Assembly (NCBI GenBank): GCA_019913005.1
Contig: JAIOHL010000258.1
Coordinates: 1 to 64,000, forward strand
Source: Anaerolineae bacterium
GTDB taxonomy: Bacteria; Chloroflexota; Anaerolineae; Aggregatilineales; J027
DNA length: 64,000 nt
Direction of reading: 5' to 3'
Shown: piece by piece, positions 9,082 through 16,576 of the stretch
How positions within the stretch are numbered: position 1 is the stretch's first letter
Layout: every line of letters starts with the position of its first letter
Program-made: the position numbers and the translations under genes
Notes under the pieces: generated by a model
The model's input: the letters and a program-made list of their open reading frames with translations, nothing else
Told to the model about the DNA's origin: nothing
Databases searched by the model: none

Positions 9082-9462
9082 ATGCGTAATATGGGGATGT
9101 CTTCATCCGACGAGGCTGCCAATCTAGAAGACCTTTTGCAACTTGCCATTACCCAAGCGCGACAAGGGAATAAGCAAGGGGCACGGGTGCTTTTGGAACA
9201 GGTTTTAGCTGCCGATAAACACAATGATCGGGCATGGTTGTGGATGGCCTACACCAGCACAAACGATATTGACCGCCGTCGCTATCTCCGTACTGTGCTG
9301 CAACTCAATCCGAGTAATAAGGCTGCCCGCCAAGCGCTCGACAAAATGCAGCATCAGCGCCAAAAATCCGAAGCACGTACTCAGCAGTTTGGTATCTTGG
9401 TGCTGGCGATTTTGGTGTTTATCATTGCGGCAGCTTGTTTGGTTGTTATAGTAGCTCGCTAA
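9082..9462 (+). CDS. Small TPR protein with C-terminal membrane anchor
   Basis: A 126-aa protein and first gene of the six-gene operon. Residues about 14-90 form a two-repeat TPR-like module (ARVLLEQVLAADKHNDRAWLWMA, then RRYLRTVLQLNPSNKAARQAL). Residues 102-124 are a single membrane helix at the extreme C-terminus, so the TPR module should be cytoplasmic. The same module starts the next three proteins, so all four derive from one ancestor. The gap to the next gene is 36 nt. Function unknown; TPRs usually bind proteins. Confidence 0.78.
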   Translation: MRNMGMSSSDEAANLEDLLQLAITQARQGNKQGARVLLEQVLAADKHNDRAWLWMAYTSTNDIDRRRYLRTVLQLNPSNKAARQALDKMQHQRQKSEARTQQFGILVLAILVFIIAAACLVVIVAR

Positions 9463-9498
9463 TTTAATCCGCTATTCGACGAGGGGCAGGATAAAATC

Positions 9499-11229
9499 TT
9501 GGATCCCGAAGAGATCAAAGCACTTTTGAAGGCAGGTATTGATGCGGCGCGAGGCAATAACCTGATAATCGCCCGCAGTATATTTCAGCAGGTCATAGAT
9601 GCTGACCCGCGCAACGAACTGGCATGGATGTGGCTGGCTCAGGTGTCTGACAATACCGAGCATCGGCGTCAGGCGCTTGAAGAAGTCCTGTCCATTAACC
9701 CGAACAACGAAAAAGCACGCTTGGCATTGGATAAGCTGCAAACCGGAACCAGCTCGCTTCGTCCTGCCAGCACGCCACCATCCCGACCTAGTGAGGCCGG
9801 GTTACGGCGACCTACGAGTTCCCCTCAATCGGGCGGTGCATCGGAACCCCCGAATTATCTCCGACCTGTCCAGCGGCATGAGTTACCCGGCAATATTTGG
9901 GCCAATTCTCGGCGCGAAAACAGTCGCTTGGGGTTCTATCTAACAGGGGCAGTCGCCGTAGGGCTGATTGGGTTAGCCGTGCTGCTTATTATCTTGCGCG
10001 TCACGGGGGATGAAGAAGCCGCCACCGAAACGGATACCCCAACCCCGGTGATTATCTTTAGCCCAACCGCGACCATTCCAACGCCGACCCCCACGCAGGG
10101 ACGTATTGTGCCAGCTATTACGGTGACACAGCGCACCGTTGATCTGCCGCCAACGTGGACACCTTCACCCACATGGACACCACTGCCCTCGCCGACATGG
10201 ACACCACAGCCACCCGGGCTCGACCAATATACGATTGTCTATGCGGGTAATGAAACAGCGGGTGATCCGTTTGTTCTGTACAGCATTGTCGCCGATGGAA
10301 CACAGCTTCAAGAGGTGCGAATTAGCTTGCCTCCGTTAGAAATAACGTCCGATGAGGAACCCGCCCAAGAACCCACTGAAGCTCCTACTGAGGAAGACGA
10401 ACCTGCTGAAGAATCCCCAACCGATGTGCCGACAGAAGCACCTGAATCCTCTGGGGAAGTTGAAATTCTCGATCCGGCACTGTCGCCTGATGGGACTCAA
10501 CTGGTCTTTACGGCCCAAGAGGGAGCGATTCAAGAGCTATTCATTATGGACTATCCCAGTGGCACACCGCGCCAATTAACCCATTTGGGGGCCGAACAGA
10601 CTTTTGGGGCCGCATGGTCACCTGATGGAGTAAACATTCTGTTTGCCTCGAATGCCACCGGGGATTTTGATGTCTATATGTTAGACCTCACGACGGGCGA
10701 TGACCCGTTTAATTGGACGAACGACGAAGACTTTGATGATCGTGACCCAGCATGGTCGCCGGATGGCAGGGCATTTGCGTTTGCTTCGGATCGTGCTGCA
10801 AAAGGCCAGTTGGAAATCTTCGTTACCCCGTTGCAAGGGGGTGAGGTCTGCCAGATGACCGATTCCAGCAACAGCAGTTTTGCGCCAGCGTGGTCACCAG
10901 ACGGCACACGCATTGCATTTATCACCAATCGCAACACCGATAACGACCTTTTTGTGATGCGCTCGGATGGTGCAACCGAACGAGTTTTGTCGGTTAATGA
11001 TGGCGATGCAGAAGAACGTGATCCGGCTTGGTCACCCGATGGGTTGTGGTTAGTGGTCAGTTCCAACCGTGAAGGGAGCGACACCTCGAATTTGTGGTTG
11101 GTGTCAGCCGACGGTGGAACATGGCAGCGTGTTTCGGAGAGCAGCGGGGAGGCCCGTGATGCTCAGTGGTTGACCAACTCGTTAGCGGTTGGTCCTGCTC
11201 CAGATTACATATTCAATTGTGCTAGATAA
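9499..11229 (+). CDS. TPR - membrane helix - WD40-like beta-propeller protein
   Basis: A 576-aa protein. Residues 1-80 are the operon's shared TPR module (AWMWLAQVS, INPNNEKARLALDKL). After a Pro/Ser/Arg linker a single membrane helix lies at about 145-167. A Thr/Pro-rich stretch with repeated TWTP follows. Residues 250-576 carry five or six PD40/TolB-like blades (WSPDG repeated), interrupted by an acidic Glu/Pro loop at about 285-320. Expected topology is TPR inside and propeller outside. The start is TTG with a GAGGGGCAGG ribosome site 9 nt upstream. No catalytic residues are evident; a sensor or binding role is inferred. Confidence 0.8.
   Translation: MDPEEIKALLKAGIDAARGNNLIIARSIFQQVIDADPRNELAWMWLAQVSDNTEHRRQALEEVLSINPNNEKARLALDKLQTGTSSLRPASTPPSRPSEAGLRRPTSSPQSGGASEPPNYLRPVQRHELPGNIWANSRRENSRLGFYLTGAVAVGLIGLAVLLIILRVTGDEEAATETDTPTPVIIFSPTATIPTPTPTQGRIVPAITVTQRTVDLPPTWTPSPTWTPLPSPTWTPQPPGLDQYTIVYAGNETAGDPFVLYSIVADGTQLQEVRISLPPLEITSDEEPAQEPTEAPTEEDEPAEESPTDVPTEAPESSGEVEILDPALSPDGTQLVFTAQEGAIQELFIMDYPSGTPRQLTHLGAEQTFGAAWSPDGVNILFASNATGDFDVYMLDLTTGDDPFNWTNDEDFDDRDPAWSPDGRAFAFASDRAAKGQLEIFVTPLQGGEVCQMTDSSNSSFAPAWSPDGTRIAFITNRNTDNDLFVMRSDGATERVLSVNDGDAEERDPAWSPDGLWLVVSSNREGSDTSNLWLVSADGGTWQRVSESSGEARDAQWLTNSLAVGPAPDYIFNCAR
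10153..10205 (+). repeat. Short direct repeats encoding TWTP
   Basis: The 11-nt unit AC(G/A)TGGACACC occurs at 10153, 10171 and 10195. The first unit, with its upstream GCCGCCA, recurs in the paralogous gene at about 11760-11777. It encodes a Thr/Pro-rich extracytoplasmic linker. Confidence 0.8.
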
Positions 11230-11259
11230 TTTATTGGTAGGTAAAGTGAGGGTGACCGG

Positions 11260-12750
11260 GTGGATCAGCAATCGCCCAATTCCCAAGTCGAGAATTTGAT
11301 ACGCGACGGTATTGCAAAGGCACGGGCTGGGGACAAAGCTACAGCCCGTCTACTTCTCCAAAAAGCTGTCGAATTAGATGAATATAGTGAACGGGCGTGG
11401 TTCTGGTTAGCCAGTGTGGTCGAAACCGATGACGAACGGCGTACCTGCTTGCACAATGTCGTTTTGATTAACCCCAACAACGCCCGTGCCCAAGAAATGC
11501 TAGATCGGATGGATGAGGCCAGCAGTGGCGAAGCTGCTCCCAAACCCCCGCTGAATCCACGCAAAGCGATGATCGGGGCAGTTGTAGCGCTGGTCATCAT
11601 CTTTTTTGCGTGCATTCTATTTTTGGTGTTTTCAGGAGATGATGGTGACGAAAAAGAGACACAGGCCACTCCATCCAGAACGCCAACAGCCAGCCATACA
11701 CCGACTGGAACCCCAACCGCAACGGCAACTTTGATTCCGACGATTGATCCGCGCAGCCTGCCGCCAACGTGGACACCTAGCCCCATGTTTTCACCCACTC
11801 CGAACTTGATAGAATCTATCCCAACGCCACCAGTCGAGATTCAGGGCAGGATTATCCTGCGGTCAGGTAATGAAGCCCTCGACCGTGAAAATCAGCCCAT
11901 CTTTTTTATCAGTATCGCCGACCTAAGCCGAATTCCCGCATCTGCCGAGGGAGTACGTGGACGAAATCCATCGGTGTCAGCGGATGGCACACGTTACGTC
12001 TTTATCCAATACTTGTCTGGGACACAGGACATCGCACTGACGATTTCCAATTTGAACGGATCAGAAACCCGTACAGCCAGCCAATACTGGGGTGGGGCGA
12101 GAACGATTATCTTTGAACAGGATATGCCTGCATGGTCACCTGTTGGCCCCCAAATCGCCTTCATTGGTAAGGAAAGTGGCAAACTAGCCACCGATTTATA
12201 TGTACTCACCATCGGAGATACCCCCCCTGTTGAAGGCGGCAACCCTGAACTCTTGCGCCGTCTGACCAATGACGATTCAGCCGAATCTTGGCCCGCGTGG
12301 TCGCCTGACGGTTCGCGGATTGTGTATGTGGCCGATTTTGTTGATGAGAGCCTAGCCCAACCCAATGGAATTGATTTGTATATCATCAATGTCGGGGATG
12401 GCTCGATTGCCCAATTGACCACAGATGTGAATGAATTGGTCGAGTCACAGCCGGATTGGAGTCCAGACGGGACGCAAATTGTTTTTAGCGGGACGGCTGC
12501 GGGCGCGAATACGAGTGATATTTATATGATGCCAGCAGATGGGTCAGTCCCACCCTCAGTATTGGTGGATTTTGGCCCCCACGACACCCAACCACGTTGG
12601 TCACCCGATGGCCGCTATATCGTGTTCAATTCCGACATTTTGGGGGGCATTGGCACGGATGTCTATATCTATGATCTAGAAACCCAAACGACCTATGCTG
12701 TGACCAATGATCCACGCAGTCAAGACGAAGCCAATGATTGGGTGCATTAG
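11260..12750 (+). CDS. TPR - membrane helix - WD40-like beta-propeller protein, paralog
   Basis: A 496-aa paralog of the preceding gene. It has the shared TPR module at residues 9-85 (AWFWLASVVETDDERR, LINPNNARAQEML), a membrane helix at about 103-125, a Thr/Pro linker at 130-185, and a propeller at about 190-496 with five recognisable blades (WSPDG or variants). Expected topology is TPR inside and propeller outside. The start is GTG, 30 nt after the previous stop. Compared with its neighbour it lacks the acidic insertion and has a shorter cytoplasmic linker. Ligand unknown. Confidence 0.8.
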   Translation: MDQQSPNSQVENLIRDGIAKARAGDKATARLLLQKAVELDEYSERAWFWLASVVETDDERRTCLHNVVLINPNNARAQEMLDRMDEASSGEAAPKPPLNPRKAMIGAVVALVIIFFACILFLVFSGDDGDEKETQATPSRTPTASHTPTGTPTATATLIPTIDPRSLPPTWTPSPMFSPTPNLIESIPTPPVEIQGRIILRSGNEALDRENQPIFFISIADLSRIPASAEGVRGRNPSVSADGTRYVFIQYLSGTQDIALTISNLNGSETRTASQYWGGARTIIFEQDMPAWSPVGPQIAFIGKESGKLATDLYVLTIGDTPPVEGGNPELLRRLTNDDSAESWPAWSPDGSRIVYVADFVDESLAQPNGIDLYIINVGDGSIAQLTTDVNELVESQPDWSPDGTQIVFSGTAAGANTSDIYMMPADGSVPPSVLVDFGPHDTQPRWSPDGRYIVFNSDILGGIGTDVYIYDLETQTTYAVTNDPRSQDEANDWVH

Positions 12751-12768
12751 GGAAATCCGGGGCACACG

Positions 12769-13044
12769 ATGAATGATCTTTCCAATGAAGAGCGTGAAGA
12801 ATTTATTCGGCTTTGTCAGGCCGCCCACGCTGCAACGGTTGCCGGAAGAAACCATGATGCCCATTTGTATTTCCGGGAGGCCATCAAAATCTTCCCACTG
12901 AGTACCAACGTGTGGTTGTGGCTAGCGAAAGTGGTAGATATTGAAGAAGATCGCCGCGTCGCGCTCGAAAATGTGTTAGCAATTGACCCCAATCATAAAG
13001 AAGCCCGGCGTCGGTTGGCGGAAATCAATCGGCGTTCCCCATAA
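12769..13044 (+). CDS. Small soluble TPR protein
   Basis: A 91-aa protein made only of the operon's TPR module (HDAHLYFREAIKIFPLSTNVWLWLAKV, then RRVALENVLAIDPNHKEARRRL). Unlike the other three copies it has no membrane helix. It lies 18 nt after the second propeller gene and 20 nt before the first cyclase gene, so it could be a soluble adaptor between membrane proteins and cyclases. That role is inference. Confidence 0.75.
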   Translation: MNDLSNEEREEFIRLCQAAHAATVAGRNHDAHLYFREAIKIFPLSTNVWLWLAKVVDIEEDRRVALENVLAIDPNHKEARRRLAEINRRSP

Positions 13045-13064: not shown

Positions 13065-14840
13065 ATGTTCAACAATGGCACGCTTATTCATGATAGTATT
13101 CAACGCATTCATCAACTGAGCCGCGACGCAATTCAGTTGGCAGAAAAGCTTCGCCAGCAAGAGCGCCAACTGCGCAAACAGGGCATGGCACTGCCGGCAG
13201 GTTCGCTGCAAAAATTGGAAGCGATCCATGTTGACCTTGAAGGACTGGCCCAAAAAATTCAGGAGCAGCAAACCGAACTCAGCCAGTTGCGGATGTTGGC
13301 AAATACTACCGAATTTGTAAACTCTAGTCTCGATCTGGATGAAGTGTTGAATGGCGTGATGGATCGGGTGATTCAGCTAGTCGGGGCGGAACGTGGCTAC
13401 ATCATGCTGCACAACCGCGTGACCAATGAGATGGAAATTGTGGTCAACCGCAAACTCGACCCGACTTCCAGCCAAGATGAAGAATTTATCTTTAGCCGAA
13501 CGATTGTGGAAAATGTGGCGCGGACGGGTGAGGCCATTGTCACCACCAATGCCCAAGAGGACTCGCGCTTTAAAGAACAAGACAGTATTATCAGCCTTGC
13601 CCTCCGTAGCATCATTTGTGTGCCGCTTATCTTTAGGGATCGTATCTTAGGTACGGTCTATTGCGACAACCGTATCAAAGATGGGCTGTTTGGTAAACGT
13701 GAGCGCCGCCTGTTGAATGCTTTTGGTGACCAAGCCGCCATCGCTATTGAAAACGCCCAACTGTTCGAGCAAATTCAGCAGACCCTCCGTGAAATCACGG
13801 CGATTAAAGTGCTGCTTGATAATATTCTGGCTTCTATTGCCAGCGGTGTGATGACCTTAGACGGGCAAGACGTCATTACCAGCTATAACCTTGCCTCCGA
13901 AACTATTTTTGGTCTAACCGCCGAAAGCATCTTAAATCAACGCTTTGATGTCAAGCTGCCCCAGATTTACGAACAGATTCAGCGTGAGGCGCAGTTGGTT
14001 CGGAGCCTATCTGAAAACTTAACGGTTGAAGCCTCGCCAACCCTCGATCAACGTGGCCCACTGTCTCTAAATTTCAAACTTAGCCCCTTTAAGGATGCCG
14101 AGCGTATTACGCAAGGGGTCGCTATTGTGGTGGATGACGTTACCGAATTGAAAAAGCGCGATGCCACCATAGCCGCGGTGCGTCGGTATTTGCCACCTGC
14201 GATGGTGGACAATATTCGCAGCATCGAACGATTGGCGCTGGGTGGCGAACGGCGCATGGTGACGGTTTTGTTTGTAGAGGTACGTTCGTTTGACACCTTC
14301 CCAGATGCCATGCCCCCGCGCGACGTGATGGAACTGCTCAATACCTATCTCACCATCAGTTCCGAGGCGATTCATCACCATGCGGGTTTGATTGATAAAT
14401 TTATGGGTAGTGACATCATGGCCTTGTTCAATACCCAGCTAAATCCATCTGACCAACATGCGTGGGATGCCCTATCCGCAGCGATGCGGATGGCTGCTGA
14501 CTTGCGGACGTTGGCGGCCTATGGGGACGCTACCACTGAAGGTAAAGCCTATTTCCGCATCGGGATTCATTCGGGCGAGGCGACATTAGGCAATGTTGGC
14601 AGCACTGACCGTCGTGAATTCACAGCGATTGGCGATACGGTCAATCTTGCCAAACGCTTGCAGGAAAATGCTGTCTATGGTCAATTGATTGTCAGCCGTG
14701 AAACATTGGCCCTGTGTCAAAATCAGTTGAACCAAACCGACTGGATTGGGTATAAAGAACTAGAACCCCTCAAGGTCAAGGGCCGGGTACAACCTGCCTA
14801 TATCTATGAAGTTTTTGACACGGCGGAAGTTAGCGCATGA
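13065..14840 (+). CDS. GAF-PAS class III cyclase subunit lacking metal-binding residues (C2-like)
   Basis: A 591-aa soluble protein: coiled coil (10-80), GAF domain (about 85-235), PAS-like domain (about 245-365) and class III nucleotidyl cyclase domain (about 398-565). Active-site residues are split. The first metal Asp is replaced (VEVRSF; E405), and the second is Ser (KFMGSD; S449). K445 and T520 fit the adenine-recognition pair of adenylate cyclases, and the transition-state N527 and R531 are intact (GDTVNLAKR). This is the residue set of the C2 half of mammalian adenylyl cyclases. Alone it should be inactive; it probably pairs with the next gene's product, whose start overlaps its stop (ATGA). 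Confidence 0.88.
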   Translation: MFNNGTLIHDSIQRIHQLSRDAIQLAEKLRQQERQLRKQGMALPAGSLQKLEAIHVDLEGLAQKIQEQQTELSQLRMLANTTEFVNSSLDLDEVLNGVMDRVIQLVGAERGYIMLHNRVTNEMEIVVNRKLDPTSSQDEEFIFSRTIVENVARTGEAIVTTNAQEDSRFKEQDSIISLALRSIICVPLIFRDRILGTVYCDNRIKDGLFGKRERRLLNAFGDQAAIAIENAQLFEQIQQTLREITAIKVLLDNILASIASGVMTLDGQDVITSYNLASETIFGLTAESILNQRFDVKLPQIYEQIQREAQLVRSLSENLTVEASPTLDQRGPLSLNFKLSPFKDAERITQGVAIVVDDVTELKKRDATIAAVRRYLPPAMVDNIRSIERLALGGERRMVTVLFVEVRSFDTFPDAMPPRDVMELLNTYLTISSEAIHHHAGLIDKFMGSDIMALFNTQLNPSDQHAWDALSAAMRMAADLRTLAAYGDATTEGKAYFRIGIHSGEATLGNVGSTDRREFTAIGDTVNLAKRLQENAVYGQLIVSRETLALCQNQLNQTDWIGYKELEPLKVKGRVQPAYIYEVFDTAEVSA

Positions 14841-16576
14841 CACTCATTACCCAACAGATTGACAACCTGACTACTGAAATCATGCGGCTCAATTATATGG
14901 CGCAGGAAGTTAGCCATATGCTGCAAGAACAGTCCAATCTTCTTCGTATCCGCAATATGAGCCTACCTGCGCCCGTGTTGGAAGATACTCAGGGATTTAG
15001 TGAATCCGTTAAGTCATTATCCGAGCAGTTGGCTTCGGAACAAGTTGAACTTGCCCAGTTGCGTGCTCTTGCCCATACGGGGGGCTTGATTAATTCTTCA
15101 CTTGATCTTGATACCGTGCTGCGCCGTGCAATGGATACCGTCATCGGCCTCACCGGGGCAGTACATGGTTATGTGATGCTGCTTGATCCAAATACGGGTG
15201 AAACAGAAAACGTCATCAGCGTCAATTTGGAAGATGGGTCTACCGATGAGGCTGAGTTGATGATTAGCCGGACAATTGTGGATGAGGTCATGCGGACTCG
15301 TCAGCCAATCTTGACCACCGATGTCCAAGATGATGAGCGCTTTCAATTGACCGAGAGTGTTTTGAAATATGACCTGCGTAGTATCCTGTGTGTACCAATT
15401 ATCTATCGTGACCAGCTTTCCGGTGTGGTGTATGCCGATAATCGTATTCGGGAAGGACTATTTGGCGAAAGTGAATTAAATCTGCTGGTCGCCTTTGCCA
15501 ATCAAGCCGCCATCGCCATTCAAAATGCCCGCTTATTCGAACGAGTCAAGGCGCGGTTAGAAGAAATCACCTCCATCCGCCAATTTTTGGATAGCATCTT
15601 CGCTTCCATTGCCAGCGCTGTCATTACGACGGATGTCAATGGCAATATCCGCACCTGCTCCCCCGTCGCCGAGCAAATTTTGGGGGTAACGGCTACTGAA
15701 TGTGTTGGACAGCCCGTGACTCAAGTCCTTCCTGCTTTATATGAGGGATTTGAGAAGGTTTTAATCGAGGTGCAGCAGCAGGGGCATCAAGAAATTATCG
15801 AAGTCAACACCGTCTTAGCCCATCGCGGCCCGACCAGCCTTAGCCTCAAACTTAGCCCCCTGCGCGGCGAACAAAACGAAACGCAGGGCGTCGCTATCGT
15901 GTTGGATGACTTGACCGCTATCAAGGAACGCGATGAAACCATTAATGTGATTCGCACCTATTTGCCGCCTGCGATGGTACGCAACATTCAAAGTATTGAC
16001 AGCTTGGGGCTTGGCGGCGAAGAACGTGAAATCACAGTGGTCTTTGCCGATGTGCGTGGTTTTACCACCTTCAGTGAGCGGCTTGCCCCCGAAGAATTGA
16101 TGCAGATTATCAATCAATATTTGTCGGCAGGGAGTTCAGCTATCCAATTAATGGAAGGTATCATTGATAAATACATGGGGGACGCCATTGTTGGGTTGTA
16201 TAACACCCAATTAAACCCCCAAACCGATGACCATGCCCTGCGGGCCGTTCGAGCAGTAATGGCATTGGTGAGTGATGTGCAGGCTCTCCATGAAGTGATG
16301 CCGCCTGAACAACGCCTATTTTATGGCATTGGTATTCATACCGGAACGGCCATTGTAGGCAACGTAGGCAGCCCCAGCCGCAAGGAATTTACGGCACTAG
16401 GTTATGCTGTTACCTTCGCCAAGAAATTACAGGAAATTGCCCAGCCGGGTGAGGTCATTATCAGCGCAGAAACCTATCAGGCGGTGAAGGAGCATGTGGT
16501 CGCCCAACCCACCGAACGGCGGTTGCGTGGCGATAATACCCCGGTGATGGTCTATCAATTGACTGATATTAGCTAA
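14837..16576 (+). CDS. GAF-PAS class III cyclase subunit with metal site but no Asn/Arg (C1-like)
   Basis: A 579-aa paralog of the upstream gene, aligning almost without gaps up to residue 449: coiled coil, GAF (85-235), PAS-like (245-365), cyclase domain (398-560). Both metal aspartates are present: D405 (FADVRGFTTF) and D449 (KYMGDAI). The transition-state Asn is Thr (T526, GYAVTFAKK) and the Arg is Lys (K530). Mammalian C1 domains show the same Val-Thr change at this place. The protein should therefore supply metals to a site completed by the upstream protein's Asn and Arg. Translational coupling (ATGA, 14837-14840) fits a heterodimer made in equal amounts. Confidence 0.88.
   Translation: MTLITQQIDNLTTEIMRLNYMAQEVSHMLQEQSNLLRIRNMSLPAPVLEDTQGFSESVKSLSEQLASEQVELAQLRALAHTGGLINSSLDLDTVLRRAMDTVIGLTGAVHGYVMLLDPNTGETENVISVNLEDGSTDEAELMISRTIVDEVMRTRQPILTTDVQDDERFQLTESVLKYDLRSILCVPIIYRDQLSGVVYADNRIREGLFGESELNLLVAFANQAAIAIQNARLFERVKARLEEITSIRQFLDSIFASIASAVITTDVNGNIRTCSPVAEQILGVTATECVGQPVTQVLPALYEGFEKVLIEVQQQGHQEIIEVNTVLAHRGPTSLSLKLSPLRGEQNETQGVAIVLDDLTAIKERDETINVIRTYLPPAMVRNIQSIDSLGLGGEEREITVVFADVRGFTTFSERLAPEELMQIINQYLSAGSSAIQLMEGIIDKYMGDAIVGLYNTQLNPQTDDHALRAVRAVMALVSDVQALHEVMPPEQRLFYGIGIHTGTAIVGNVGSPSRKEFTALGYAVTFAKKLQEIAQPGEVIISAETYQAVKEHVVAQPTERRLRGDNTPVMVYQLTDIS

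Follow-up and report, generated by a model that had tools for sequence, protein, structure and literature searches.

We analyse a 64,000-nucleotide stretch of DNA (hereafter the window; contig JAIOHL010000258.1 of assembly GCA_019913005.1, positions 1 to 64,000) from an Anaerolineae bacterium of the Chloroflexota, whose genome is in 365 contigs and whose nearest named relatives are 'Anaerolineae bacterium isolate DTUCFX7' and 'Chloroflexi bacterium isolate CFX5'. Two genes lie on its forward strand at 13065-14840 (gene 1, 591 aa) and 14837-16576 (gene 2, 579 aa), sharing an ATGA start/stop overlap at 14837-14840. Both proteins have the order GAF, PAS, class III cyclase. In protein 1 an N-terminal helix is followed by the GAF domain (13332-13748, residues 90-228), the PAS domain (13815-14159, residues about 251-365) and the cyclase domain (14256-14786); in protein 2 the corresponding domains are at 15104-15520, 15584-15910 and 16025-16561. 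Both proteins match the GAF, PAS and PF00211 models, with GAF and cyclase well above the Pfam cut-offs (for PF00211, 64.5 and 61.2 bits against a cut-off of 21.9), and they are 45% identical over residues 14-551. NCBIfam has no equivalog over its cut-off for either protein.

Complementary catalytic residues in two adjacent genes

We first compare the six catalytic positions of the two cyclase domains, with the register fixed by alignment to CyaC, CyaB, Cya2 and other solved cyclases. Protein 1 has E405 (14277-14279) and S449 (14409-14411) at the two metal Asp positions, but keeps the base-recognition K445 (14397-14399), T520, the ribose-orienting N527 (14643-14645) and the transition-state R531 (14655-14657). 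Protein 2 has both metal Asp, D405 (16049-16051) and D449 (16181-16183), together with K445 and T519, but has T526 (16412-16414) at the Asn position and K530 (16424-16426) at the Arg position. Protein 1 is thus C2-like and protein 2 is C1-like. The initial annotation had described this split, and its observation holds in every residue that it named. We add two details: K445 is present in both proteins, and the C2-like gene comes first, the reverse of the mammalian C1-C2 order.

Distribution of the pair and of its single-gene relatives

To ask whether this pattern is more than one genome's accident, we searched the window's order, in which 145 of 154 genomes have strong matches. Seven of its families (here f1 to f7) mostly have two adjacent genes, while one basal family (f8) has a single gene. 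We read loci from about 100 genomes of the order and 20 from other orders of the class. In the 89 adjacent pairs with both cyclase domains complete, all 89 keep both Asp in the protein 2 ortholog and Lys, Thr/Ser, Asn and Arg in the protein 1 ortholog, and the reciprocal hetero-site is complete in none. The initial annotation had proposed looking for co-conserved pairs in related genomes, and had said that homologous pairs with all six residues in one protein would count against its reading; the co-conserved pairs exist across seven families of one order, and a complete set in either protein is found in 0 of 89. In contrast, all 29 single-gene relatives (9 from f8 and 20 from outside the order), which align along the full GAF-PAS-cyclase length, are intact, although one Arg lies beyond a contig end. 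No adjacent pair was found outside the order in our class and phylum samples, and genomes of families f1 to f7 with one match or with fragments gave no counterexample, most of these lying at contig ends.

Quantitative inspection of all orthologs shows how strict the division is. Lys, Asn and Arg of protein 1 are each kept in 91/91, while its second metal Asp is lost in 91/91 (Asn 46, Thr 23, Ser 20, Gly, His) and its first is still Asp in 46/91 and replaced by E, Y, F, N, H or S in 45/91. In protein 2, the first Asp is kept in 91/91 and the second in 90/90, whereas Asn is present in only 17/90 and Arg is lost in 90/90 (Leu 40, Tyr 15, Lys 12, Phe 11 and others). In one genus (here g46) protein 2 has also lost the Lys (Gln in 9 of the 10 loci read), as a C1-like subunit may. 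Conserved neighbours of the motifs split in the same way: G408, E414 and E419 are lost in protein 1 and kept in protein 2, while the loop around K572/G573 is kept in protein 1 and relaxed in protein 2.

One duplication followed by reciprocal loss

We next consider the history of the two genes. A maximum-likelihood tree of 106 sequences, made without the six catalytic columns, places all protein 1 orthologs in one clade (support 99), all protein 2 orthologs in another (96) and the two as sisters (100), with the f8 single genes and the outgroup outside. This is one tandem duplication inside the order, after f8 branched off, with the rooting resting on the chosen outgroup. Fitch counts on this tree show where change was tolerated. 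The protein 1 clade has a minimum of 9 changes at the first Asp and 11 at the second, and 0 at Lys, Thr/Ser, Asn and Arg; the protein 2 clade has 0 at both Asp, but 1 at Lys, 6 at Thr, 15 at Asn and 14 at Arg; single genes have 0 throughout.

These counts bear on the possibility that both proteins are dead pseudocyclases kept only as GAF/PAS sensor or scaffold proteins, which is suggested by the fact that each protein alone lacks required residues. Dead paralogs would lose residues at random; instead, the six complementary positions show no change (39 and 38 rows) while the other six changed at least 56 times. In addition, the pair is the only class III cyclase over the cut-off in genus g46 (see below), and we consider this explanation very unlikely.

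Both genes are maintained together

Both genes are under purifying selection, with dN/dS of the cyclase domains of about 0.01-0.26 for each in close pairs. The genes are adjacent in every pair except one that is split over contig ends, and most pairs overlap by 4 or 1 bases or lie within a few bases of each other; a -4 or -1 overlap is the commonest arrangement in the relatives, which suggests translational coupling. The surroundings, however, are not conserved beyond family f1. The TPR/PD40, SpoU and S20 neighbours are shared only within genus or family and gave no functional hint; in the window, the four genes upstream (9082-13044), two encoding short TPR proteins and two encoding proteins with PD40 propeller repeats, are shared within genus and part of family f1 only.

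In 12 of 12 genomes of genus g46 tested, the pair gives the only class III cyclase matches over the cut-off, and three genomes without the pair (G036, G083 and G131) have none at all. This limits the alternative that each protein pairs with other intact cyclases in the cell rather than with its neighbour. The window's genome does hold several other cyclase genes, some with intact motifs, but such pairing cannot hold in g46, which has no other class III cyclase over the cut-off, and the two genes stay adjacent although their surroundings change; we regard this alternative as very unlikely as well. Proteins with cyclic-nucleotide-binding domains occur in all 17 genomes tested, including the three without the pair. 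In g46 the main one is a SulP permease with STAS and cNMP-binding domains (12/12 genomes; L192 1968-4220, L193 273-2609 and L194 149-2515 among the loci read). It looked like the effector, but a close relative is also in a genome without any match to the pair (G082), and so it stays a lead.

Predicted structure and coevolution

We attempted to model the complex through a natural same-frame pair (locus L050, with its TAG read as Gln), that is, an 807-aa read-through construct of one ortholog pair rather than the window's own proteins. Alignments that included protein 2 rows put rows on the wrong half, and we used one that was clean of this problem. The AlphaFold prediction gives two confident cyclase domains, which match CyaB and CyaC at Z about 25-27 and rmsd 1.7-2.1 over 186-187 residues, as expected for the class III catalytic fold. 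The relative placement of the two domains is left undefined (pTM 0.35; rmsd 14.6 over 366 residues to AC5), so the model speaks neither for nor against a heterodimer with wreath geometry. Inter-subunit mutual information was uninformative at about 68 effective pairs and showed no coherent signal at the dead site.

An obligate heterodimer as the best explanation

Taken together, we interpret the two genes, with high confidence, as encoding the subunits of an obligate heterodimeric class III nucleotidyl cyclase, most likely an adenylyl cyclase. In this view, protein 2 holds the two catalytic metal ions with D405 and D449, while protein 1 recognises the base (K445/T520), orients the ribose (N527) and stabilises the transition state (R531). 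Only one of the two interface sites would be productive; its mirror site, formed by E405/S449 of protein 1 and T526/K530 of protein 2, would be dead. Each subunit has its own GAF and PAS sensor, so the enzyme could read two inputs. The pair would have arisen by tandem duplication of an intact homodimeric GAF-PAS-cyclase within one order of Chloroflexota, followed by reciprocal loss of the two half-sites. The residues, their conservation, the tree and the selection are direct results of our analysis, while physical heterodimerisation, activity, ATP as substrate and two-input sensing are inferred from them; no biochemical or structural data exist, and activity of the single or mixed proteins was not assayed. 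The initial annotation's reading of the pair as an obligate heterodimer with one productive site is supported, with association of the two proteins and inactivity of each alone still inference. As for the substrate, K445 with T/S520 in protein 1 matches CyaC-type adenylyl cyclases (K1057/T1139 in CyaC), which makes ATP likely, though Thr also occurs in some guanylyl cyclases (PMC4215837). It is also important to note that loss of the Asn alone is not fatal, since Ma1120 has Ala there and is active (PMC4215837).

One detail complicates the picture of protein 1. Beside the lost metal Asp it has gained an acidic residue at position 450 (14412-14414; E or D in 89/91 orthologs, Ala in 28/29 single genes), so that an unusual metal site in protein 1 is not strictly excluded. 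One could then imagine protein 1 as an active homodimer with a relocated metal site and protein 2 as its inactive modulator, in keeping with the Asp405 still present in about half of the orthologs. However, the rest of the metal half is eroded in protein 1, and protein 2 keeps an invariant metal half with no Arg of its own, which has no use unless completed by protein 1. This reading is possible in principle but very unlikely.

Comparison with known cyclases

The same division of residues is known from eukaryotes. Mammalian transmembrane adenylyl cyclases (tmACs) have one active site and one degenerate site (PMC4174876), but they are one polypeptide with membrane domains and with C1 before C2, while here we find two genes without membrane domains, the C2-like one first, with GAF and PAS sensors and a probably separate origin by a bacterial duplication. 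Metazoan soluble guanylate cyclase (sGC) alpha/beta likewise has two separate genes, N-terminal sensor domains and a heterodimer with one complete site, and homodimers of its catalytic domains are inactive (PMC3591389); it uses H-NOX/PAS domains and makes cGMP, whereas here we find GAF/PAS and K/T base-recognition residues that fit an adenylyl cyclase of the CyaC type. The initial annotation's suggestion that the pair converged on the C1/C2 logic is supported by the tree, in which the two genes are sisters nested among Chloroflexota single-gene cyclases; this, and the fact that PDB searches rank bacterial cyclases first, argues against common descent with tmAC or sGC, but no eukaryotic rows were in the tree and we leave the point undecided. 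The closest solved catalytic domains are those of the bacterial homodimeric cyclases CyaC, CyaB and Cya2, which, like the single-gene GAF-PAS-cyclases of other Anaerolineae, keep all residues in one protein and form, or are expected to form, two symmetric sites.

A single-chain version of this logic occurs in the window's own genome, so the logic itself is not unique in this bacterium. A 1075-aa protein of the soluble adenylyl cyclase type (L011 1288-3465 and L010 523-3573; own genome contig C119:19416-20753) has a first cyclase domain that keeps both metal Asp but lacks the Asn-Arg motif and a second that keeps Asn-Arg but has lost the Asp. It is one polypeptide with C1 before C2, and its catalytic domains are only weakly similar to this pair. 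What appears to be new is the separate-gene, order-wide pair with intact single-gene relatives. Papers describe bacterial class III cyclases as homodimers whose single domain holds every catalytic residue (PMC4174876, PMC9552081) and complementary heterodimers as a feature of higher eukaryotes (PMC8815786), and our full-text searches, which covered open-access papers only and so are weak negative evidence, found no report of a natural two-gene bacterial class III heterodimer. If our reading is right, a bacterial order repeated the step from homodimer to obligate heterodimer while living relatives (f8 and other orders) preserve the intact single-gene state, so that the route by which a symmetric enzyme becomes an asymmetric one with a dead, possibly regulatory, second site can be tested with existing sequences. 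Two sensor sets on one enzyme would also allow input integration.

Other features of the pair

A more speculative reading, which we consider possible but doubtful, is that the dead mirror site has become a regulatory pocket, as the forskolin site of mammalian enzymes. Protein 1 orthologs share new conserved residues near the dead half-site that are absent from the single-gene relatives and are unexplained: besides the acidic residue at 450, these are Arg498 (14556-14558; 74/91) and Thr507 (14583-14585; 90/91). A charge pair is also swapped between the two proteins (protein 1 numbering): single genes and protein 1 have Arg396/Glu582 and protein 2 mostly has Glu396/Arg582, which may be a salt bridge within the domain. 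Finally, in one genome (G034; loci L178, L187 and L189) the pair looks frameshifted into fragments, a possible natural loss or an assembly error.
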